The translations under genes and the position numbers were made by a program. Shown in pieces: positions 797-9,913 of a stretch of 21,439 bases of DNA. The DNA is from a virus. The stretch lies in IMG/VR virus record IMGVR_UViG_3300007509_000072, positions 1-21,439 of that record. The stretch is one strand, 5' to 3'. Position 1 is the first letter of the stretch. Each line of letters opens with the position of its first letter. Below the pieces are notes generated by a model. The model saw only the letters and a list, made by a program, of their open reading frames with translations, searched no databases and was not told where the DNA came from.

Positions 797-877
797 ATGC
801 CAAAAATTAACAAAGATTTGATCCAGATCAAATCTTTTTATATAATATATGATATGAGGAAAAAATTAAATGCCTAA
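797..877 (+). CDS. 26-codon leader reading frame spanning a hairpin
   Basis: ATG at 797 follows a near-perfect Shine-Dalgarno, AGGAGG at 783-788, and the frame closes at TAA 875-877. Codons 6-14 lie on the palindrome at 812-837. The stop falls just after the start codon of the next gene (870), so a ribosome finishing this frame would end on top of that start. The first codons (M P K I) copy the first codons of the downstream gene (M P K I I K), as does the ribosome site before them. The frame is therefore either a translated leader affecting the hairpin and downstream initiation, or the remnant of the original gene start split by insertion of the hairpin-promoter unit. The peptide has no recognisable domain. 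Confidence 0.35.
   Translation: MPKINKDLIQIKSFYIIYDMRKKLNA
812..837 (+). terminator. 26-bp palindrome with T-tract, terminator-like, copy 1
   Basis: AAAGATTTGATC (812-823) pairs perfectly with GATCAAATCTTT (826-837), separated by CA, and a run of T follows to 839. In RNA this is a long stem ending in U residues, as in an intrinsic terminator, although it is A/T-rich and so weaker than a classical one. A reverse-complement copy lies at 1988-2015. The right half also lies in the spacer of a promoter whose -10 is at 841-846, so termination and re-initiation would be coupled. Confidence 0.6.
818..846 (+). promoter_or_regulatory. Sigma70-like promoter embedded in hairpin copy 1
   Basis: TTGATC (818-823) and a perfect TATAAT (841-846) are separated by exactly 17 bases. 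The -35 matches the consensus at four of six positions and is part of the left arm of the palindrome. Transcription would begin around 853 and serve the glycine-rich adhesin gene at 870, leaving a leader of about 17 bases containing GAGGA at 856-860. The A/T richness of the region makes chance matches to -10 common, but the spacing and position after a terminator are as expected for a real promoter. Confidence 0.45.
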
Positions 878-1559
878 AATAATTAAAGTCGCAAAAGGAT
901 CTTTTACAACAGCAGATATTACTGTTGACTCAGACGGAAGAGTTATTACAGCTTCTTCAGGATCAGGTGGTGCAAATTTAGTTGCAACATTTGGAGAAAC
1001 AGGTCCTGCTTCAGGAACATACACGGCACAACCAGGTGCTAATTATATAGTTGCTTACATAGGCGGAGGCGGTGGAGGCGCTGGAAGAAGTCCTGGTACC
1101 ATAAACGGAGCTGCTGGAGGCTTTGCTGCTTATGCAACACCTATTACACAACCTTACTCTAAAGCTTATTCAATTGGAGCTAGAGGAACTGGACAACAGG
1201 GACAAGGTGGTGGTGGTAATGCTGGAGGAGCGACTACTTTTGGTTCTCCTGCAACAGTAACTTCAAACGGTGGTGGTGGCGGTGGAGGTCCTGGTGGATC
1301 TCAAGGAAGTGTTGGAACTGTTTCTGGGGAAACTATGGATTTAACTAGTATAGGAAGTTCTACTAAAGGTTTAATGTATAACAAAAGTATAAGAAGACAA
1401 ATGGGTACAGATATTATAATGGACTCACCAAGTAATTTTGATAAGGATAACCGTACAGTATATCAAGGCCAAGGCGGAGCACAAGCAAACATAAGTTCTG
1501 AAGGTGGAGCACCAGGTGGATCTGGTTTCATCTATGTTTACGAAAACATAGGTTCTTAA
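870..1559 (+). CDS. Glycine-rich phage adhesin / tail fibre tip protein
   Basis: A 229-residue protein. Residues 1-35 form a short N-terminal section ending in SSGSGG. Residues 60-145 contain several poly-glycine runs separated by short polar segments (YIGGGGGGAG, GQGGGGNAGG, SNGGGGGGG). The C-terminus ends in PGGSGFIYVYE. This layout matches the glycine-rich domain common in phage tail fibre tips (Pfam Gly_rich_2 type, from memory), and resembles the polyglycine-helix adhesins of T-even phages in principle. The likely role is receptor binding on the host surface. ATG 870 has GAGGA at 856-860. A hairpin-promoter unit precedes it and a reverse-complement copy follows the next gene, so this gene and its partner could be exchanged as a unit. 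Receptor specificity cannot be predicted. Confidence 0.6.
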   Translation: MPKIIKVAKGSFTTADITVDSDGRVITASSGSGGANLVATFGETGPASGTYTAQPGANYIVAYIGGGGGGAGRSPGTINGAAGGFAAYATPITQPYSKAYSIGARGTGQQGQGGGGNAGGATTFGSPATVTSNGGGGGGGPGGSQGSVGTVSGETMDLTSIGSSTKGLMYNKSIRRQMGTDIIMDSPSNFDKDNRTVYQGQGGAQANISSEGGAPGGSGFIYVYENIGS

Positions 1560-1561
1560 TT

Positions 1562-1984
1562 ATGGCAAAAATAGTAATGTCAGCGTTAGAAGATGGTGGA
1601 GTTTATAAAGTTTTTGCTGATCAAGCAGAATTAGATGCTTCACACATAGTACAATCTGCATATACAATTGTTGATTTGTCTGATGCTGATTTAGAAAAAG
1701 TTTTAGAAGAAACAGCAACCTTTAAAGTTACGGATGGAGTTTTAGGTGTTGTTGACATATCTACTACTTGGAACAAAGAAGAGTATAAAAATGCTAAAGA
1801 CAAACTTTTAGTGGTTTACAATAGTATGGATGATAAAACTAAAAAAGCTTCTTTAGAAAGTTTTATAGAAACTGTTAATGGCATAGACATAGATTCTTTA
1901 ACAATAGATTCATCAGTATCTTTTTGGAAATACGTAAAATCAATAAACGGCAACGTCGGTTATCACCCTTTACAATTATTATAA
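1562..1984 (+). CDS. Hypothetical protein downstream of adhesin
   Basis: A 140-residue acidic protein that starts two bases after the adhesin gene stops. It has no clear ribosome site of its own, so translation is probably coupled. The N-terminal third looks like a small alpha/beta unit (KVFADQAELDAS, YTIVDLSDADLEKVLEE). The C-terminal half is mostly helical and charged, with KNAKDKLLVVYNSMDDKTKKASL. There is no signal peptide or membrane segment. I do not recognise the family. Small genes directly after phage adhesins often encode assembly chaperones for the fibre, and that is a reasonable guess from position only. The gene is followed at once by the terminator-like palindrome at 1988-2015, so the adhesin and this gene seem to form a two-gene transcription unit. 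Confidence 0.45.
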   Translation: MAKIVMSALEDGGVYKVFADQAELDASHIVQSAYTIVDLSDADLEKVLEETATFKVTDGVLGVVDISTTWNKEEYKNAKDKLLVVYNSMDDKTKKASLESFIETVNGIDIDSLTIDSSVSFWKYVKSINGNVGYHPLQLL

Positions 1985-1987
1985 TTA

Positions 1988-2015
1988 AAAAGATTTGATC
2001 TGGATCAAATCTTTT
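1988..2015 (+). terminator. Palindromic terminator-like hairpin, copy 2 (inverted copy of 812-837)
   Basis: AAAAGATTTGATC (1988-2000) pairs with GATCAAATCTTTT (2003-2015) around a central TG. The central dinucleotide is TG here and CA in copy 1, so the two 26-bp cores are exact reverse complements of each other. The hairpin lies four bases after the stop codon at 1984, the right place for a terminator of the adhesin unit. Its right arm ends in TTTT. Confidence 0.65.
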
Positions 2016-2022
2016 ATCCCCC

Positions 2023-2051
2023 TTTACTATCCCCTTTACAAATTATATAAT
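2023..2051 (+). promoter_or_regulatory. Sigma70-like promoter P1 for the oxygenase cassette
   Basis: TTTACT (2023-2028) and TATAAT (2046-2051) are separated by 17 bases. The stretch TTATATAATATAT around the -10 is the same as that around the -10 after hairpin copy 1, so the hairpin plus promoter behaves as a repeated unit. It precedes the first oxygenase gene at 2099. It overlaps a second candidate promoter that is shifted by 12 bases. Confidence 0.45.
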
Positions 2052-2063
2052 ATATACTATAGT
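2035..2063 (+). promoter_or_regulatory. Sigma70-like promoter P2 for the oxygenase cassette
   Basis: TTTACA (2035-2040) and TATAGT (2058-2063) are separated by 17 bases, each matching consensus at five of six positions. The -35 lies in the second copy of a 12-base-period direct repeat of CCCCTTTAC (2019-2027 and 2031-2039), which also supplies the -35 of P1. A second direct repeat, TATAGTGC, lies at 2058-2065 and 2069-2076. Transcription from P2 would leave a leader of roughly 30 bases that includes AAAGG just ahead of ATG 2099. Confidence 0.4.
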
Positions 2064-2098: not shown

Positions 2099-2650
2099 AT
2101 GCAAAACTTATTTGTAATAGAAGATTTTTATACTGCTGAAAATTTCGGCTTAATGTCTAATTTTCAAAGAACGTGTAACCTGAAAGGTTTACATGTCCCT
2201 CAAAATATTTATTACCCTTCAAGACTAGAAGCTTATCCTACATGGGAATCTGATAATTTTGAAAAAGATCAAATAGAATACAACCTTACAGAAAAAACTT
2301 TAATTCAAAAAACAGGGTTTAAAATTAAAAAAATTAAATCTTTTTTTAGAAAAGTATTAACTTCTGAACTTTTAAAATCTCCCTACAAAGGAAGAAATGA
2401 ATCCCTTATCCATCAAGATTCCGACAATTTTGATTGGGCTGGTGTAGTATATTTTGATAGTTTTAGTATAGAGGATGGAACAAGACTATATTCATATAGA
2501 GAACAAGTAAAGCCTGATATTATAATTGGATCTAAGCCCAATAGATGTATAGTTTTTAAAGCTGCCTTATTTCATTCGGCGGGAATAGATTGGAATAAAG
2601 ATTCGAGGACTGTGCAAACATTTTTTTTAAAAACGGATGAGAATGTTTGA
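2099..2650 (+). CDS. 2OG-Fe(II) oxygenase-like protein (HxD type), cassette gene 1
   Basis: A 183-residue protein, first of the oxygenase cassette, with AAAGG a few bases before the ATG. The C-terminal half fits the double-stranded beta-helix of 2-oxoglutarate/Fe(II) dioxygenases: His105-Gln-Asp107 in LIHQDSDNFDWAGVVYF as the first two iron ligands, His159 in ALFHSAG as the third, and Arg170 in DSRTVQTFF at the position that binds the 2OG carboxylate. Residues 1-30 (FVIEDFYTAENFGLM) look like the usual N-terminal helix of such proteins. The expected reaction is Fe(II)- and O2-dependent hydroxylation or oxidation of an unknown substrate, giving succinate and CO2. No signal peptide is seen, so it should act in the host cytoplasm or inside virions. 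Its 3' end overlaps the next gene. Confidence 0.65.
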   Translation: MQNLFVIEDFYTAENFGLMSNFQRTCNLKGLHVPQNIYYPSRLEAYPTWESDNFEKDQIEYNLTEKTLIQKTGFKIKKIKSFFRKVLTSELLKSPYKGRNESLIHQDSDNFDWAGVVYFDSFSIEDGTRLYSYREQVKPDIIIGSKPNRCIVFKAALFHSAGIDWNKDSRTVQTFFLKTDENV

Positions 2651-3389
2651 AAATAAAATAGAATTTAGTGCTCATGAAATATACGTCAATTTAAAAGACA
2701 GTTATCCTATACCAGCAAAAAATAATTTACCTGAATGGTATAAAAAATTAGATCATACTTGGCCAGATAAAACTGTTAAAGGGTGTGTGCCTTTTTTAGA
2801 TTCAATGTCAGCGGGGTATATTTTAAAATTACCTCAAGATTTTTATTTTAACCACAACTTTACAAATGAAAAAGGGGAGAAAGATACTATTTTTGCGTGT
2901 CCAATGTCAGAAGAATCTGGTTTTTTAAATTTACATTTTGTTAATTTGAACAAACAAGGAAATGAACATCATTCTGGAAAACAAATTAAAGGCAGTCCAC
3001 ATTTAAAAAAAAATAATAACCAAAGCGTTTTAAAGTTTCTGAATCCTTGGAAAATAAAAACACCTTCAGGATATTCTTGTTTATTTGTTCCTCCACTTAA
3101 TAATTCAGACGATAGATTTAGTATAATACCAGGTATTGTTGATACCGATACATATAATCAAGAGATAAATTTCCCATTCCTCATAAATGGAGATAAGTAT
3201 GAAACTTTAGAAACAACTCTGAAAAAAGGAACCCCTTATGTTCAAGTAATACCTTTTAAAAGAGAAAGTTGGAAAATGGTGATTAAAGGAAAAAAATCAC
3301 AAGACCTGGTTAAAGAAAAATTTGGATTCTCTTTAAAATTTTTACATAAATATAAAACATTATACTGGAATAAAAAATCATGGAAATAG
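2637..3389 (+). CDS. DUF6065-like protein of unknown function, cassette gene 2
   Basis: A 250-residue protein starting at ATG 2637 or, equally possible, ATG 2643. Both overlap the upstream gene. It has no HxD...H iron motif. The order of phrases, SYPIPAKNNLPEWYKKL near the start, CVPFLDSMSAGYILKLP, then SGYSCLFVPPLNN, GIVDTDTYN, INFPFLING, and finally KKGTPYVQVIPFKRESWKM, matches a family I know from marine phage and bacterial genomes annotated as DUF6065 (recalled, not searched). It is probably a globular, largely beta cytoplasmic protein. Members tend to occur near phage oxygenase genes, so a partner, substrate carrier or product-processing role for the neighbouring enzymes is possible but unproven. 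It overlaps the next start by ten bases. Confidence 0.55.
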   Translation: MRMFENKIEFSAHEIYVNLKDSYPIPAKNNLPEWYKKLDHTWPDKTVKGCVPFLDSMSAGYILKLPQDFYFNHNFTNEKGEKDTIFACPMSEESGFLNLHFVNLNKQGNEHHSGKQIKGSPHLKKNNNQSVLKFLNPWKIKTPSGYSCLFVPPLNNSDDRFSIIPGIVDTDTYNQEINFPFLINGDKYETLETTLKKGTPYVQVIPFKRESWKMVIKGKKSQDLVKEKFGFSLKFLHKYKTLYWNKKSWK

Positions 3390-3946
3390 ATAGTTTTATT
3401 AGAACGTATAAAATCATAGAAAAAAAACCGTTGTCTAAATTTTTAGCTTACGTTGAAAAAACAAAAACCTTTAAGGCAGCCCCTATTGTTACTAAAAAAG
3501 GATTGCAAGTTAATACTGAAGTCAGGGATGTTAAAACGTTATTTTTAAATGATTTAGAAAAGAGTTTAACTAATGTTCATTGGTACAATTATTTTAATAG
3601 CTGTTTTTTAAGATGTTTGGAAGAATACAAACGAGAAACTAATTCTGAGTTCCTGCATTATCAAAATAATTTTGAAATGAGCGTTTTAAAATATGATATA
3701 AATAATTTTTATACATGGCATACTGACCACGGTTTTACTACTCCGAGAACCATGAGTTGCATTTTATTGTGTAATGACGACTATGAAGGTGGGGACTTGA
3801 CATTTAAATTACCCAACCACGAAGAGTTTTGTGTTGAAGGTAAACCAGGTGAAGTAATAATGTGGCCTAGTAATTTCATGTACCCTCATTGCGTTAAACC
3901 TGTAACCAGTGGAAATAGAATAACAGTTGTTGGATGGTTGGTATAA
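3380..3946 (+). CDS. Prolyl-4-hydroxylase-like 2OG-Fe(II) oxygenase, cassette gene 3
   Basis: A 188-residue protein and the clearest oxygenase of the set. The iron ligands are His114 and Asp116 in YTWHTDHGF and His170 in FMYPHCVKPV. Arg180 in SGNRITVVGWL is placed to bind 2OG. Between them, the phrases MSCILLCNDDYEGGDLTF and GKPGEVIMWPSNF are typical of the P4Hc / PKHD-like branch of prolyl-4-hydroxylase-type enzymes. Residues 1-100 form the charged N-terminal helical part. The expected activity is hydroxylation of a protein side chain or a small molecule, with 2OG and O2 as co-substrates. The substrate is unknown. It starts ten bases before the stop of gene 2 and ends in TAATG, sharing its stop with the start of gene 4, so translation is coupled on both sides. 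Confidence 0.8.
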   Translation: MEIDSFIRTYKIIEKKPLSKFLAYVEKTKTFKAAPIVTKKGLQVNTEVRDVKTLFLNDLEKSLTNVHWYNYFNSCFLRCLEEYKRETNSEFLHYQNNFEMSVLKYDINNFYTWHTDHGFTTPRTMSCILLCNDDYEGGDLTFKLPNHEEFCVEGKPGEVIMWPSNFMYPHCVKPVTSGNRITVVGWLV

Positions 3947-4578
3947 TGAAACATAATGTGTGGCCTTTGTTTTCATCCCCTCTTTTTTTAATTGAAACTG
4001 ATTTAAAAAAAAATGAATTAAAGAAATTAGAACCAAAATTAAAAAAAGAAAAAACAATCCACAGTCCAATTAATAAACTTAGTGAGAACCCTAAACAAAA
4101 TAGTTTTAATACTAGTATAGAAGGAGTTTTACAAAAAGAGGAGTATGAAACTTTAAAAGATGCTGTCGTTAAATCCATAAGATGTATTAATGATAATTAT
4201 TTTAAATATAAAACTAATTTTATCATAAGTAAATCATGGGTGGGATGGGCTCCTGCAAAAAGCAGTTGTACTATTCACAGACATCAAAATTGTTTTTTAA
4301 GTGGAGTAGTTTATATTAAAGCAGAAGAAAACTGTGGAGATATTGAATTTGAAAACTTTAACCATAGGGACATATCAGTAGAACCTAGACACAAGAACAC
4401 TATTTATAATGTGGAACGTTTTCGGGTAACACCAAAACCAGGGTTACTGTTACTGTTTCCAAGTAATATGTATCATAAGATACATGAAAATAATTCAAAC
4501 AAAGACAGGATTTCTGTTCCTTTTGATGTTATGCCCACGTCTTTCTTAAATAAATATATTGAAAATAATGAAGTGTAA
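3946..4578 (+). CDS. 2OG-Fe(II) oxygenase of the TIGR02466 / 2OG-FeII_Oxy_5 type, cassette gene 4
   Basis: I chose ATG 3946, which shares TAATG with the upstream stop and gives a 210-residue protein beginning MKHNVWPLFSSPLFLIETDL, the usual N-terminus of this family. An in-frame ATG at 3934 would add four residues. Family signatures are His111-x-His113 in CTIHRHQNCFLSGVVYI, the strand CGDIEFEN, and PGLLLLFPSNMYHKIHENN with His177, followed by Arg188 in KDRISVPFDV. The family has His-x-His where most relatives have His-x-Asp. Which residues bind iron in it is not something I can settle. It is related to the products of 5089-5652, 5640-6119 and the minus-strand gene 7139-7708, suggesting duplication within the cassette. 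The substrate is unknown. Confidence 0.75.
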   Translation: MKHNVWPLFSSPLFLIETDLKKNELKKLEPKLKKEKTIHSPINKLSENPKQNSFNTSIEGVLQKEEYETLKDAVVKSIRCINDNYFKYKTNFIISKSWVGWAPAKSSCTIHRHQNCFLSGVVYIKAEENCGDIEFENFNHRDISVEPRHKNTIYNVERFRVTPKPGLLLLFPSNMYHKIHENNSNKDRISVPFDVMPTSFLNKYIENNEV

Positions 4579-5092
4579 ACTAATTAAAAATTTTTTGACA
4601 AAAGAAGAAATTAATCTTTGTACAGATTACTGTAGAATACAACACCGACAAAACAAATCTAATTTTGATAATCAAAACAGTAATTTGGATTCTAGTTTCT
4701 ATGCAGATCCTTTAATGGAATCCATGTTGTTAAACAAAAGAAAGTTAGTTGAAAAACATTCAAAACTGAAGTTGCTACCAACTTATTCTTATTTTAGAGT
4801 CTACACTTATAAATCAGATTTACCAAAACATACAGATAGACCCTCTTGTGAAATAAGTGTTACAGTGCATATAAACTCAGACGGAACACCTTGGGAAATA
4901 TATGCTGGAGATAAAAAATACAGAACTAAACCAGGAGACGCTATTTTATATAAAGGTTGTGAAGTTGAACATTGGAGAGAACCTTTTGAAGGCGACTGGC
5001 ATGCACAAACTTTTTTACATTATGTAAATTCTGAGGGACCCTATAAAGATTTTTATAAGGATCAAAGAAGAATGTGGGGAGATAAAAAATGA
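4568..5092 (+). CDS. 2OG-Fe(II) oxygenase (P4H-like), cassette gene 5
   Basis: ATG 4568 gives 174 residues. A TTG nine bases earlier is in frame but less likely. It overlaps the upstream gene by 11 bases. The motif set is His88 and Asp90 in DLPKHTDRPSCEISVTVHI, His135 in GCEVEHWREPF, and the C-terminal strand WHAQTFLHYVN, where an Arg or Lys 2OG anchor is not obvious. The phrase KPGDAILYKGCEVEHWREP is one I recognise from phage and bacterial 2OG oxygenases of prolyl-hydroxylase type. The N-terminus (KLIKNFLTKEEINLCTDYC) is the standard opening helix. The chain ends with a charged tail (FYKDQRRMWGDKK). Without a clear basic 2OG anchor, its co-substrate binding may differ from its neighbours. 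ATGA couples it to gene 6. Confidence 0.72.
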   Translation: MKCKLIKNFLTKEEINLCTDYCRIQHRQNKSNFDNQNSNLDSSFYADPLMESMLLNKRKLVEKHSKLKLLPTYSYFRVYTYKSDLPKHTDRPSCEISVTVHINSDGTPWEIYAGDKKYRTKPGDAILYKGCEVEHWREPFEGDWHAQTFLHYVNSEGPYKDFYKDQRRMWGDKK

Positions 5093-5652
5093 GCTTTTTA
5101 GAAATTATGTTTTGTCATTCAATATATCATTCAACACTATCCAACGAAAAAATTAAAAAACAATTATTAAAAATCGTGTACGCTTTAGAAAAAAATGTTG
5201 AATCAAATAAAAAAACCAACAAAGGGGGATATCAAAAAGAGTTAAACTGTAAAGATTTATTCTCAAATTTAATATCTAAAGAAATTAATAAATATGAGAA
5301 ACTTTTAAATTTCAATAAGAAATTAAAGCTGGATAATTTATGGTGTAATATTAATTACAAAAACAGTTATAATGTATCCCATGTACATCCCCAAGCTCAT
5401 TTTTCAGGAGTCTATTATTTAAAGACGCCAACAAATTGTGGTCAATTAATTTTCACTAATCCCAATACATTTGTTGGAATGCACTCTGAAATGGAACAAG
5501 CAAGTGAGCACCCTAATTTCAAATCTCATTTTTATATAGAACCTGTTGAAAACCTATTGTTAATTTTTCCTTCTTACTTATTACATGAAGTGGAAATGAA
5601 CGATTCTAATAAAAAAAGAATATCAATATCTTTTAATTTATGCATCAAATAA
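5089..5652 (+). CDS. 2OG-Fe(II) oxygenase of the TIGR02466 / 2OG-FeII_Oxy_5 type, cassette gene 6
   Basis: A 187-residue protein whose ATG overlaps the previous stop as ATGA, a standard coupled start. Signatures are His98-x-His100 in VSHVHPQAHFSGVYYL, then CGQLIFTNPNT, then NLLLIFPSYLLHEVEMND with His166, and Arg177 in KKRISISFNL. The arrangement is the same as in gene 4 and in the minus-strand gene. The first 75 residues are Lys/Asn-rich and helical (residues 20-70), consistent with a lid over the barrel. The next gene is evidently a diverged copy of this one: it repeats the CG-x-I/L-x-F strand, the SNKKR segment and the general length. It is predicted to be cytoplasmic with unknown substrate. 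Confidence 0.75.
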   Translation: MSFLEIMFCHSIYHSTLSNEKIKKQLLKIVYALEKNVESNKKTNKGGYQKELNCKDLFSNLISKEINKYEKLLNFNKKLKLDNLWCNINYKNSYNVSHVHPQAHFSGVYYLKTPTNCGQLIFTNPNTFVGMHSEMEQASEHPNFKSHFYIEPVENLLLIFPSYLLHEVEMNDSNKKRISISFNLCIK

Positions 5653-6119
5653 ATATATTTACAAAATCATTATTTTTTACTGATCAAAAAGATTCGGAAT
5701 TTAAAAAAGAAACTGTGAAAACAAAACAAGTAGATGTTAAAAAATTTAATAAAATTATTTCTAATTTTGTAAATGGACTATGTAAAAACTATTGTATAGA
5801 TTCTCAAAAAATTGAGATTGACAATGTTTCTTTTGTTGAAGATTTAAAAAATGAAAGTAATTTAAATCAAAAATTTAAAGATTTTTTATTTCAAGGACTG
5901 TATCTAATTGATGTAGATGAAGATTGTGGTTTAATATCTTTTAAAAGAGAACCTGAAAAAATCATATTTATTCATACAGATTTTATCCCTGTTTTTAATT
6001 TCATAGCCAGAGAAAACACAGTGGTGGTAATTCCTTTTAATGTTTCATTTGATCTTAAAGAAAATAAATCAAATAAAAAAAGACAATATATACACTTTAC
6101 TTTAAAATATGCCTACTGA
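5640..6119 (+). CDS. Degenerate oxygenase-fold paralogue lacking metal ligands, cassette gene 7
   Basis: A 159-residue protein overlapping the upstream gene by 13 bases. It aligns with gene 6 over the catalytic half: FQGLYLIDVDEDCGLISFK against FSGVYYLKTPTNCGQLIFT, and SNKKRQYIHFTL against SNKKRISISFNL. At the metal sites it has Gln77 and Phe79 in place of the two histidines of HVH, and Phe137 in place of the distal histidine. The 2OG arginine (Arg148) is kept. The frame is open with no frameshift, so selection seems to have kept the fold while the chemistry was lost. It may be a pseudoenzyme that scaffolds, regulates or dimerises with an active paralogue, or binds the same substrate as a decoy. 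Catalysis is unlikely. Confidence 0.6.
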   Translation: MHQINIFTKSLFFTDQKDSEFKKETVKTKQVDVKKFNKIISNFVNGLCKNYCIDSQKIEIDNVSFVEDLKNESNLNQKFKDFLFQGLYLIDVDEDCGLISFKREPEKIIFIHTDFIPVFNFIARENTVVVIPFNVSFDLKENKSNKKRQYIHFTLKYAY

Positions 6120-6636
6120 TAAAGAAGTAACTTTAATAGATGATATTTTATCACAAAAAGAAAACATAGGGTTGATCAAAAAACTTTGTTACCATCAATG
6201 GTATTTAACAAAATGTTTAGACTATGAAAATTTAATGCCTCCCTTGTTCGCAGGGAGAGGTGGGGGTTTTAGTGTTGAAACTTTACGAGATGGCAAGCCT
6301 TTTGATTCACCTCTTAATAAAGAAGCATATAAAATTACTAAAAAAATCTGTGAGCAATTAGATATTAAAAAGTATAAAATAAAAAGATTTTTATGGAATA
6401 TGTATTTTCCTAGAAATCATACTGACTTTCATAAAGACGAATACACCGACGATTTTTTAAGCATATTATATAATCCACACACGACCGATGGAGGCACTTT
6501 TATTGACAATAAATTTTATGTTGATAAATTAGGCCAAGCAAAAGTTTATAAAAGTATGGTTGAACATAAAGGCAACCCTCCTTCAAAAGATGCAGTTCGT
6601 TTTAATCTTAATATTTTAATAAAATGTTTAAAATAA
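6109..6636 (+). CDS. 2OG-Fe(II) oxygenase-like protein (HxD type), cassette gene 8
   Basis: A 175-residue protein that overlaps gene 7 by 11 bases. The core motif is clear: His108 and Asp110 in HTDFHKDEYTDDFLSILYN, a strand with DGGTFIDNKFY, His153 in KSMVEHKGNPP, and Arg164 in DAVRFNLNILI as the 2OG anchor. The segment MYFPRNHTDFH before the motif is the strand that leads into the barrel. The first 60 residues contain a glycine/arginine patch (FAGRGGGFSVETLRDG) that could contribute to substrate binding. It is not close to the PF13759-like members and looks like a separate lineage of the superfamily, so the cassette holds several unrelated oxygenase types rather than only tandem copies. The substrate is unknown. 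Confidence 0.7.
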   Translation: MPTDKEVTLIDDILSQKENIGLIKKLCYHQWYLTKCLDYENLMPPLFAGRGGGFSVETLRDGKPFDSPLNKEAYKITKKICEQLDIKKYKIKRFLWNMYFPRNHTDFHKDEYTDDFLSILYNPHTTDGGTFIDNKFYVDKLGQAKVYKSMVEHKGNPPSKDAVRFNLNILIKCLK

Positions 6637-7112
6637 AAGATAAATTTTTACCTGAAGATGAGTTTTTAAAAATAAAAAATACCTTACTCACTAACACCTT
6701 CCCCTGGTACTATGTAAATAATGTGGCGTATCCAGGAGATAATGCTATAGGAAATTTTTATTTAAGCCATACCGTATATGAAGATGGAACCATATTAAGT
6801 CAACCAGCCCTTAATTTACTTGGACCTGTTCTTTTAAAATTAAACATAAAAAAACTATTTCGAGTAAAATGTAATTTTTATCCTCACACCCCTAAGATAA
6901 AAAAACACGCATTGCATCGTGATCATGATGATCCTAAATGCAATAGTGCTATACTTTACATTAATAACAATAATGGGTACACAGGATTTTCAAACCGTAA
7001 AATAAAATCTGTTGAAAATAGGGTGTTATTTTTTAAAGCACATAAAAAACATCACAGCACAACATGCACTGATCAAGATGCAAGAATCAATGCAAACTTT
7101 ATTTATTTTTAA
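6624..7112 (+). CDS. 2OG-Fe(II) oxygenase-like protein (HxD type), cassette gene 9
   Basis: A 162-residue protein, last of the + strand cassette, overlapping gene 8 by 13 bases. His98 and Asp100 in KKHALHRDHDDPKCNSAILYIN are the first two iron ligands, His143 or His144 in KKHHSTTC the third, and Arg154 in DARINANFIYF the 2OG anchor. The N-terminus (KIKDKFLPEDEFLKIKNTL) is the standard opening. NNGYTGFSN between the two halves is typical of phage oxygenases of this kind, which I know from cyanophage genomes. The protein is short for the superfamily, with little beyond the barrel. It ends 26 bases before the stop of the convergent gene on the other strand, with only a weak 5-bp inverted repeat (7117-7138) between them. 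Confidence 0.7.
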   Translation: MFKIKDKFLPEDEFLKIKNTLLTNTFPWYYVNNVAYPGDNAIGNFYLSHTVYEDGTILSQPALNLLGPVLLKLNIKKLFRVKCNFYPHTPKIKKHALHRDHDDPKCNSAILYINNNNGYTGFSNRKIKSVENRVLFFKAHKKHHSTTCTDQDARINANFIYF

Positions 7113-7138
7113 AACCTAAAGTGTATATATTGTCTTTA

Positions 7139-7708
7139 TCAGTAGACATATTTTATAGTTCTTTCTTGTAATAAATCATCTCTGATCTCTTTCACATCAA
7201 AATTAAAAGAAATGATACTTCTTCTTTTTTTTGTCTGATTTACACCAGATCTGTGTATAACATGTGATGGAAAAACAATAAAATCACCTTCTATAACTCT
7301 TAATGAAATAGCTTTATTTAAATTAAGAGGATCTAATAATTGAGTGTATTGATGATCATCAAACTCTAGATAATACACACCTGTAAAATTATTGGCATGA
7401 ATATGCCAACCGTGTGTGCCTTGATTACCGTATTGTTGAAACCATGTTTCATGTATTTTAATTGATTTAAAACCAATTTTATTCACCATTTCTAACAGTT
7501 GATTATGAGAATATGGAAATACGTATTTAACCCAGGGTCTGTTAAAATCAGAAGCTTGGTCCCAATCTAGCTTATGAAAAACATCTTCAAATTCTATTTT
7601 GCTGTTTTTAGTTTTTGATTGATTAATTAGAGATAATAGGTTATTTTTAAGGTTTAAATGATTATTAAAGTGCGCCTTTAAAAGCGGGGTTCCTATGGAA
7701 AGATTCAT
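7139..7708 (-). CDS. 2OG-Fe(II) oxygenase of the TIGR02466 / 2OG-FeII_Oxy_5 type, minus strand, cassette gene 10
   Basis: A 189-residue protein and the only convincing gene on the minus strand. It starts MNLSIGTPLLKAHF, the family's usual opening. Signatures are His102-x-His104 in HGWHIHANNFTGVYYLEF, then EGDFIVFPSHVIHRSG with His152, and Arg162/Arg163 in KKRRSIISFNFDV. It is a clear relative of genes 4 and 6 and is better preserved than gene 7. It converges on gene 9 and diverges from the tail hub gene at 7775. A promoter-like TAGACA-N16-TATAGT on the minus strand ends 11 bases before the ATG, and no Shine-Dalgarno is visible, so its mRNA may be nearly leaderless. The opposite orientation suggests separate control or independent acquisition. 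Confidence 0.75.
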   Translation of the reverse strand: MNLSIGTPLLKAHFNNHLNLKNNLLSLINQSKTKNSKIEFEDVFHKLDWDQASDFNRPWVKYVFPYSHNQLLEMVNKIGFKSIKIHETWFQQYGNQGTHGWHIHANNFTGVYYLEFDDHQYTQLLDPLNLNKAISLRVIEGDFIVFPSHVIHRSGVNQTKKRRSIISFNFDVKEIRDDLLQERTIKYVY

Positions 7709-7774: not shown

Positions 7775-9913
7775 ATGCTACAGAAAATTAACATACAACC
7801 TGGAATCAATAAACAAGTCACAGCAACGGGCGGCGAGGGCCAATGGGTTGATGGTGACTATGTTCGTTTTAGATATGGCTCACCTGAAAAAATAGGTGGT
7901 TGGGCACAGTTAGGAGATATAACTTTAACCGGTAGAACAACTGCCATGCACCAATTTGTTAATTCAAGTGGTATTAAATATTCAGCACTAGGTACAAACA
8001 GAATTTTATATGTGTATTCAGGAGGCGCATTTTATGATATAACTCCTATTAAAGCTACAACAACATTAACAAATGCATTTACAACAACAAACGGAGACGC
8101 AACAGTCACGATCACGTTTGCATCTGATCATAATATTACTCAGTACGATATCATTAAGCTGGATAATTTTACCACTATTACCAATTCTGATTTTGGCTCT
8201 TCTGATTTTGATGATAACGTATTCATGGTTGCAACCGTCCCTACTTCAACAACGATTACAGTTGAAATGGGATCGAATGAATCAGGATCAGGAGCATCCA
8301 CATCAGGTGGAATAAGAGTTCAACACTACTATTCGATTGGACCTTCAGTTGAAGAATCAGCTGCTGGTTGGGGATTAGGAGCATGGGGAGGTACTGCAGC
8401 AGGTGCAGTTACATCTACTTTAGATGGAGCATTAACAGATTCTTCCACAAGTATTGTACTTGATGATTCATCAGGATTTCCTGCTTCAGGAACAGTTTTA
8501 ATAGATGATGAAAGAATTGTTTATACAACAAACACTACAGGTACTGGAACTTTATCAGGTTTAACTAGAGGATCAGATAACACAACAGCCGCATCACACT
8601 CTGATGCTGCTACTGTAACCAATGCATCTGATTATACTAAATGGGGTGCATCACAAACAGGTGATATTGTAACAGCTCCTGGTATTTGGTCATTAGATAA
8701 TTTTGGTAATAAACTTATTGCAACTATTTCTGATGGTGCAACTTTTGAATGGGATTCTAATGCAACAGGTGCTACATCAACCAGAGCAACGACTGTATCC
8801 GGAGCACCAACAGCTTCACAGTTTACTTTAGTTTCTACACCGGATAGACACTTAGTTTGTTTTGGAACAGAAACTACAATTGGCACAACATCTACTCAAG
8901 ATGATATGTATGTTAGATGGTCTTCACAAGAATCATTAACTACTTGGACTCCAACTTCAACTAATACTGCCGGTACACAAAGACTTGCAGATGGTACAAG
9001 AATTGTTGGAGCAATTAGAGGTCGTGATGCAATTTATATTTGGACTGATACAGCTTTATTTATTATGAAATTTGTTGGTCCACCATTTACTTTCTCGTTT
9101 CAACAAGTTGGAACTAACTGTGGATTAATTGGACAAAACGCTGCAGTTGAAGTTGATGGATCAGCTTACTGGATGTCAGAAAATGGTTTCTTTAGATACA
9201 CTGGACAATTACAATCATTACCATGTTTAGTTGAAGACTATGTTTACGATGGCTTAGCAGATGTACCTAGACAACATATTTATGCAGGTTTAAATAATTT
9301 ATTTGGTGAAGTCACATGGTTTTATCCAGGTAGTGGAGCTACAGCTAATTCTAGATCGGTTACATACAATTATATGGATTCGAGCAGCGAGCGGCCTATA
9401 TGGACTATAAGTTCACTTGCAAGAAGTACTTGGGCAGATTCATCTATATTTGGTAAACCACATGGAACTGAATATGATTCAAGTGCTACAAGTGATTCAA
9501 CAGTTGGCAACACCGATGGTGTTACAACTTATTATGAACATGAAACTGGAACTAATCAAATTAAAGCAGGCGCAACAACTGCTGTTCAAGCTAGTATTGA
9601 ATCAGGAGATTTTGACTTAGACCAAAAAGGTTTAGGTGGAGACGGTGAATATATGATGAAAATTAGAAGAGTCATACCTGACTTTTTAACTCAAACTGGA
9701 GATGCAAGAGTTACATTAAACTTAAAAAATTATCCAACAGATGCACAAGCAAGTTCATCTTTAGGACCATTTACATCAACAACAACTACAACTAAAATAG
9801 ATACCCGTGCTAGAGCTAGAGCAATAGCTTTAAAAGTAGATAATACTGGTTTAACTCAGCACTGGAAATTAGGTACTTTTAGATTAGATATACAACCGGA
9901 TGGAAGAAGATAA
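7775..9913 (+). CDS. Podophage tail hub / DNA-stabilisation protein, P22 gp10-like
   Basis: A 712-residue structural protein. The opening INIQPGINKQVTATGGEGQW followed by VDGDYVRFRYGSPEKIGGW is a signature I know from tail proteins of marine podophages related to P22 gp10. Repeated short beta strands suggest a propeller or hub: WSLDNFGNKLIATI (about 305-318), then DMYVRWSSQESLTTWTP, then SAYWMSENGFFRYTG. Residues 219-286 are a separate small beta domain (LDDSSGFPASGTVLIDDER, then GTGTLSGLTRGSDNTTAASH) inserted between GWGLGAWGG and the WSLDNFG strand. It would sit at the portal end of the tail and help retain packaged DNA and attach fibres. There is no obvious strong ribosome site. It is the first + gene after the oxygenase cassette. 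A T7 tubular gpB-like assignment is the alternative. Confidence 0.6.
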   Translation: MLQKINIQPGINKQVTATGGEGQWVDGDYVRFRYGSPEKIGGWAQLGDITLTGRTTAMHQFVNSSGIKYSALGTNRILYVYSGGAFYDITPIKATTTLTNAFTTTNGDATVTITFASDHNITQYDIIKLDNFTTITNSDFGSSDFDDNVFMVATVPTSTTITVEMGSNESGSGASTSGGIRVQHYYSIGPSVEESAAGWGLGAWGGTAAGAVTSTLDGALTDSSTSIVLDDSSGFPASGTVLIDDERIVYTTNTTGTGTLSGLTRGSDNTTAASHSDAATVTNASDYTKWGASQTGDIVTAPGIWSLDNFGNKLIATISDGATFEWDSNATGATSTRATTVSGAPTASQFTLVSTPDRHLVCFGTETTIGTTSTQDDMYVRWSSQESLTTWTPTSTNTAGTQRLADGTRIVGAIRGRDAIYIWTDTALFIMKFVGPPFTFSFQQVGTNCGLIGQNAAVEVDGSAYWMSENGFFRYTGQLQSLPCLVEDYVYDGLADVPRQHIYAGLNNLFGEVTWFYPGSGATANSRSVTYNYMDSSSERPIWTISSLARSTWADSSIFGKPHGTEYDSSATSDSTVGNTDGVTTYYEHETGTNQIKAGATTAVQASIESGDFDLDQKGLGGDGEYMMKIRRVIPDFLTQTGDARVTLNLKNYPTDAQASSSLGPFTSTTTTTKIDTRARARAIALKVDNTGLTQHWKLGTFRLDIQPDGRR

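Follow-up and report, generated by a model that had tools for sequence, protein, structure and literature searches.

Two palindromic hairpins, each followed by a promoter-like sequence, flank two genes near the left end of the DNA analysed here (hereafter the window), which is an entire IMG/VR virus record of 21,439 bases. A preliminary description regarded them as an inverted pair of mobile regulatory cassettes bracketing an adhesin module, and the locus thus raises the question of what these units are, how they came to lie where they do, and whether they move genes. Our preferred answer is that each unit would consist of a terminator hairpin and a sigma70-like promoter that together act as a compact stop-and-restart signal, and that the left one (site 1) lies at a recombinant join. 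We assign this reading a probability of about 0.55.

To place the window, we compared its proteins with those of known phages. The nearest relatives of its 712-aa protein (7775-9913) are found in phage 023Pt_psg01, HTVC027P, and HTVC023P (44-50% identity), and the 119-aa protein encoded at 422-781 is closest to that of HTVC033P (63%). In addition, the window matches the gene order of HTVC027P (tail genes, oxygenase genes, and a large structural gene). Such nearest relatives, together with the HTVC027P gene order, suggest that the host is probably SAR11. All features described below are given on the plus strand unless stated otherwise. The 119-aa gene of the structural region is followed by a Gly-rich 229-aa gene (870-1559), which is probably tail-associated, a 140-aa gene (1562-1984) that ends just 5' of the second hairpin, and a cassette (2099-7112) composed of one Pfam-confirmed 2OG-Fe(II) oxygenase (3380-3946, the only one among the plus-strand genes scanned) and oxygenase-like neighbours. 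The idea of an adhesin or receptor-binding module is in keeping with the tail-module position, which fits HTVC033P, where the 119-aa homologue comes after the tail fibre gene. However, neither Pfam nor PHROGs gave a match for 870-1559 or 1562-1984, and the label adhesin is therefore putative. For HTVC023P-type pelagiphages, passages of PMC9599517 describe 2OG-Fe(II) oxygenase auxiliary metabolic genes (AMGs) and their cross-family transfers; its text contains neither promoter nor palindrom- nor cassette as a term.

Within the oxygenase cassette, a segment with two oxygenase-like genes (6103-7113) is inverted relative to all 15 relatives compared, and is flanked by inverted repeats at 6079-6125 and 7117-7159 (21 nt at 100% and 27 nt at 93% identity). 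Either the segment has truly been inverted or the difference arose in assembly. At the matching position, the three genes of HTVC027P are on the minus strand. The PHROGs family name for the genes at 6109-6636 and 6624-7112 is "DNA endonuclease V" (phrog_274), a label that may be misleading inside an oxygenase cassette; Pfam found nothing for either gene.

Hairpin 1 (812-837) is a perfect 26-nt palindrome, AAAGATTTGATC-CA-GATCAAATCTTT, which is T-tailed and terminator-like on both strands. Hairpin 2 (1989-2014) is the same palindrome with TG at its centre, and the two copies are each other's reverse complement. The preliminary description had reported the palindromes, their centres, and this relation correctly, but gave the right copy as 1990-2013, which is one base too short at either end. 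No further site in the window matched the palindrome pattern at up to three mismatches, nor did any of 100 shuffles. The two hairpins are also the sole inverted repeats in the window with arms no shorter than 10, a loop no longer than 8, and two or more GC per arm, and two such repeats were reached in just one of 100 shuffles. A 13-mer, TTATATAATATAT, is common to both units (838-850 and 2043-2055); a 13-mer shared 3' of both hairpins was seen in 5 of 5000 dinucleotide shuffles and in none of 3964 random window pairs. The same A/T string was thus rightly noted at both sites, but it directly adjoins the hairpin at site 1 only, and comes 28 nt later at site 2.

Taken as whole units, the pair is not inverted. 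In a palindrome of this kind, only the two central bases distinguish the sequence from its reverse complement, and in a further copy, found in a related contig (L003), they are TA. These two bases (CA, TG, TA) drift, and the supposed inversion rests on them. When the right flanks of the two hairpins were aligned in direct orientation, 16 of 18 positions matched, whereas the inverted comparison with the left flank gave a match of only 7 nt, and the hairpin-free relatives carry this site 2 left flank as their own ordinary sequence. Thus, the pair is direct: both units read hairpin then promoter in the same direction.

RNA fold prediction gave plus-strand energies of -9.5, -10.8, and -10.8 kcal/mol for the three copies (z = -4.2, -4.1, and -4.6) and reverse-strand energies of -10.0 and -10.3 kcal/mol for hairpins 1 and 2 (z = -3.8 and -2.4). 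The predicted stems have 11 or 12 pairs, four-base loops, and T tails, as would be expected of AT-rich intrinsic terminators that could work in both directions. Three points count against the terminator reading: the stems are poor in G-C pairs, a built-in terminator scan (at least three G-C pairs, loop of 3-8 nt) listed neither hairpin, and the T tail at site 2 consists of four T only, followed by ATCCCCC. As for promoters, a candidate sigma70-like promoter at 818-846 (TTGATC-17-TATAAT) has its -35 hexamer inside the left arm of hairpin 1, and a similar match (TTTACT-17-TATAAT) lies at 2023-2051, so the perfect TATAAT with a 17-base spacer noticed earlier is confirmed at both sites. The candidate promoter of the oxygenase cassette is TTTACA-17-TATAGT (2035-2063). 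Each of these three matches agrees with the consensus at 10 of 12 positions; taken together, promoter-like matches are no commoner in the window than chance would give (74 versus 78 expected from shuffles), a further point against the reading.

Site 2 could be compared in 19 contigs that encode relatives of the 183-aa protein. The hairpin is present in one of them (L003) and absent from the other 18. The seven closest hairpin-free contigs read ...TATCACCCTTTACAATTATTATAATATATATTATAAAG... or near variants, and carry TTTACA-17-TATAAA, which has the hexamer spacing of the candidate cassette promoter; the 11 more distant ones lack the hairpin and have TATA-like boxes, with promoter consensus judged by eye. 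Relative to these empty contigs, the window and L003 contain approximately 66 extra nt (1986-2051 in the window, ends approximate) bounded by TATAAT-type repeats, namely the hairpin, the second and third TATCCCC(C)TTTAC-like copies, and the second TATAAT. Three TATCnCCCTTTAC-like copies are located at 1961-1973, 2015-2027, and 2028-2039, with hairpin 2 between the first two, and these near-copies suggest slippage or tandem duplication of the promoter -35 region. The seven close empty contigs have the candidate cassette promoter without the hairpin, so the promoter is taken as ancestral and the hairpin as a gain, which appears to be recent, common to L003, and placed just 5' of the pre-existing promoter. 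As the preliminary description had it, the right unit does stand at the edge of the oxygenase cassette: site 2 is the cassette boundary, and its candidate promoter may well start the cassette.

At site 1, 88 nt separate the 119-aa gene of the window from the gene that follows it. The corresponding spacing is 8-26 nt in 86 related loci, of which 80 are the best of 262 relatives and six come from other scans (84 distinct contigs by name), and the hairpin is absent in all 86. Over 241-809, the window shows 95-100% identity per 60-base bin to L004, L092, L106, L008, and L006. It is approximately 98% identical to L004-type contigs left of 809 (97% for the 119-aa protein and the L004 group), and L003/L091-like right of 852; after hairpin 1, identity to L004-type contigs drops to 76% while that to L003, L091, and L093 rises. 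The ratio of L004-like to L003-like informative sites is 92:3 over 421-820 and 21:59 over 821-1300 (Fisher P-value = 9e-25, with sites that are linked rather than independent). At the join, L004 reads ATGCCAAAAATTATAAAA and L003 reads TTAAAATTAACAAAG-GAGGAAAAAATTAAATG, in which AAAATTAACAAAG is directly followed by GAGGAAAAAATTAAATG, whereas the window reads ATGCCAAAAATTAACAAAG-(hairpin and TATAAT)-GAGGAAAAAATTAAATG, with the hairpin unit between the two. These readings place the seam at the 7-mer AAAATTA (803-809), a microhomology that ends two bases left of the stem and links a left parent resembling L004 to a right parent resembling L003; the 119-aa gene lies to its left and the Gly-rich gene to its right. 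Sequence comparison thus points to a sharp parental switch with the hairpin at the breakpoint, and this holds for site 1.

Six sampled contigs of the left-parent type (L004, L005, L006, L007, L008, and L104, the last judged from alignment only) have no hairpin at the seam, and no contig in the sampled data corresponds to the presumed right parent with a unit at site 1. The left flank of hairpin 1 is tied to L003 by just two further bases (AC) and AAAG, the latter being also the first bases of the stem, and we therefore consider an L003-like right parent with moderate confidence. The join also retained the start of the L004-type downstream gene as a remnant frame of 26 codons (797-877), which runs through hairpin 1 and overlaps the first 8 nt of the next gene. 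Further right, the window is again mosaic, informative sites favouring L004 by 34:14 over 1301-1540 and 28:10 over 1541-1940. No hairpin is present at the switch near 1300-1400, which counts against hairpins as general exchange points. Beside hairpin 2, the informative sites (0:0 over 1941-2020 and 0:3 over 2021-2100) are too few for placing a switch.

We then analysed the distribution of the palindrome. The exact 26-mer occurs in one other IMG/VR contig, L003, and a 20-mer core adds only L090, a contig of 246 kb in which the match falls within a 509-aa reading frame and was taken as chance. No bacterial or archaeal genome contig contained the 22-mer core. At up to three mismatches, the palindrome was found in one of 22 related records (L003) and was absent in 21, these records being fragments, and it was absent from all 24 SAR11 genomes searched. 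The composite pattern with the site 1 spacing, which does match the window, was found in no IMG/VR contig, and phage blastn searches with both units gave AT-rich partial matches only, among the matches listed (20 of 187 and 20 of 444 records). A match to a Sulfolobus virus also turned up, and the site 1 unit gave a match of some kind in 48 Vibrio phage records. The palindrome is not a common mobile sequence, and a widespread mobile element was rejected on the basis of the single other IMG/VR contig with the exact 26-mer and the lack of genome contigs with the 22-mer core. A survey of the window and the loci compared yielded 87 terminator-like stems and 12 terminator-promoter composites; five of the 12 rows are the hairpins of the window and L003 on either strand, and the other seven are 9-bp stems. 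A different hairpin, without promoter, lies just 5' of an oxygenase-type gene at the tail-AMG boundary in L048 (6565-6588) and L069 (2666-2689), and is imperfect in their near relatives L043 and L049. As for the related contigs in which it had been proposed to search for the palindrome and its linkage to breakpoints, it is largely absent from them, but at site 1 it is linked to a breakpoint.

Based on these observations, the following model may be considered. The AT-rich, T-tailed hairpin would serve as an intrinsic and potentially bidirectional terminator next to a host-type sigma70-like promoter. At site 2, it would end the structural-gene transcript, and the promoter would restart transcription for the oxygenase cassette; here the hairpin and the partial repeat of the -35 region would be the recent gain seen in L003 as well, added to an ancestral promoter. 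At site 1, a shortened unit would occupy the gap before the Gly-rich gene. The spacer with a separate -35 is missing there, so the hairpin arm itself would provide TTGATC. Deletion from a unit like that of site 2 would nearly yield the site 1 sequence. Through the 7-nt microhomology (2-9 nt left of the hairpin), a right arm of the L003 type bearing the unit would have become attached to the L004-like left arm, leaving a spare ribosome-binding site and start codon. Translation of the remnant frame (797-877), if it occurs, would oppose termination, so attenuation is possible; the frame could also couple translation or act as a leader. The sequence, the predicted fold, the presence or absence of the units, and the seam are shown, whereas termination, promoter activity, which unit was copied from which, and any part of the palindrome in causing the exchange are inferred. 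Points against the model are the small number of known copies (three, in two contigs), the absence of the presumed right parent from the sampled contigs, and the remnant frame, whose translation would weaken termination at hairpin 1.

Several other explanations were weighed. The units could be true PeSL (promoter-early stem-loop) cassettes, whose copies at different places provide the homology at which DNA is exchanged, so that gene blocks pass from one pelagiphage to another. Their form, the presence of two copies in one fragment, and the position of one on a parental seam would agree with this, but it appears doubtful: the sequence shared at the seam is 7 nt and none of the six left-parent-type contigs has a hairpin there, the neighbouring genes occur without the unit in 86 of 86 site 1 loci and 18 of 19 site 2 contigs, and the parental switch at about 1300-1400 is hairpin-free. 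A left parent outside the sample that carries a unit at site 1 would nevertheless be compatible with the sampled contigs. Much less probable, and in our opinion highly improbable, is that the palindromes serve as inverted repeats at which the adhesin segment is flipped by site-specific or homologous recombination, i.e., phase variation. Although they are reverse complements, this relation rests on two drifting bases, the promoters face the same direction, and no recombinase match was found among the 10 window proteins scanned. Moreover, 870-1984 has one orientation in all close relatives and none of the relatives shows 838-1988 inverted; inversion between the hairpins was thus rejected.

The palindrome might instead be an operator that overlaps or adjoins the promoter, such as a Crp/Fnr-type box, whose consensus we take to be TTGAT-N4-ATCAA. 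The sequence TTGAT-NNNN-ATCAA is present in all three copies, a look-alike with the same 17-nt spacing (TTTGATCTAGATCAAATTTTTTGTTATAATATATG) occurs in Vibrio phage Chazly21, and a crp-fnr gene beside nirK is mentioned for some SAR11 in parts of PMC12816887. However, the HTH_Crp_2 cut-off was exceeded in none of 24 SAR11 genomes (0 of 5 and 0 of 19, with two sub-threshold matches), many of which are single-cell or metagenome assemblies and possibly incomplete, and the stem continues beyond both ends of the box and finishes in T runs. The centre of the palindrome lies approximately 28 bp 5' of the predicted start at site 1 and 56-68 bp at site 2, so there is no fixed operator geometry, and we regard an operator as unlikely. 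A similarly low probability applies to an assembly chimera of two co-occurring phages in the metagenome at site 1, with site 2 being ordinary. The join is found in a single contig, L003 has no unit at site 1, and palindromes and shared 7-mers favour misjoins. On the other hand, approximately 40 nt at the join are absent from both sampled parent groups, so a simple L004/L003 misjoin is excluded and a third, unsampled donor would be needed.

If the units work as stop-and-restart signals, they would show how SAR11 phages separate transcription of the late structural block from that of an auxiliary-gene cassette. Promoters and terminators of these phages are poorly mapped: no terminator was reported for phage Skadi-1 (PMC10504331), and prediction of middle and late promoters failed in pelagimyophages (PMC7029224). 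Among the papers listed for pelagiphage promoters and terminators and for PeSL shuffling, none was found to report such a unit in pelagiphages, which is not proof of absence. A hairpin unit on a recombinant seam would also be a good case in which to ask whether terminator-promoter composites favour exchange in phages other than the T4 type. A more speculative idea, to which we give little credence, is that in HTVC023P/027P-type phages small terminator-promoter units are copied, or copy themselves, from one intergenic site to another, where they mark or provoke genome joins, with the 26-codon leader made by the site 1 join as a possible attenuator. If true, a PeSL-like shuffling system would exist outside T4-type phages, in HTVC023P/027P-type pelagiphages.

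Comparison with known systems further helps to define the units. Phage moron and AMG cassettes carry their own promoter. The window, L003, and the seven close hairpin-free contigs likewise have a sigma70-like promoter of their own before the oxygenase cassette, but the hairpin of the window is facultative and lies 5' of the promoter, whereas those cassettes have a fixed downstream terminator. The site in the T5-like Vibrio phage Chazly21 (L135, 600-640) shares TTTGATC-TA-GATCAAA, the T run, and TATAATATATG at the same spacing. It belongs to an unrelated phage group, and the alignment is AT-rich and short (36 nt, 89%, E = 4e-4), so that a shared origin is unlikely; the resemblance may reflect convergence, either towards a common operator or towards a common terminator-promoter layout. 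A hairpin-promoter motif of the haloarchaeal virus HGTV-1, likened to PeSLs by its authors in a passage of PMC3950731, also combines an inverted repeat with a TATA-like element before genes; however, HGTV-1 is an archaeal virus and its motif precedes most genes on one genome side.

The closest comparison is with the PeSL composites of T4-type phages, reportedly described by Arbiol in 2010 and Comeau in 2014. Their role in these phages is described in parts of PMC4503421, and they are also treated in parts of PMC5931544. PeSLs join a stem-loop able to terminate transcription to a strong early sigma70-like promoter; the units of the window resemble them as small intergenic composites of a predicted terminator and a candidate sigma70-like promoter, one of them at an exchange point. 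PeSLs occur in T4-type myoviruses as many near-identical copies in hyperplastic regions and exchange through homology between unit copies, whereas the window belongs to an HTVC023P/027P-like podovirus, has two units in 21.4 kb, which are located in the structural/AMG region, and has a 7-mer outside the hairpin as its seam. Of the resemblance proposed in the preliminary description, the form (T-tailed stem-loop with sigma70-like promoter) and the position of site 1 at a breakpoint are retained, and the notions of a mobile cassette that mediates shuffling are unsupported. The likeness to PeSLs is good in form and partial in position, but membership fails on copy density, exchange homology, and virus type.
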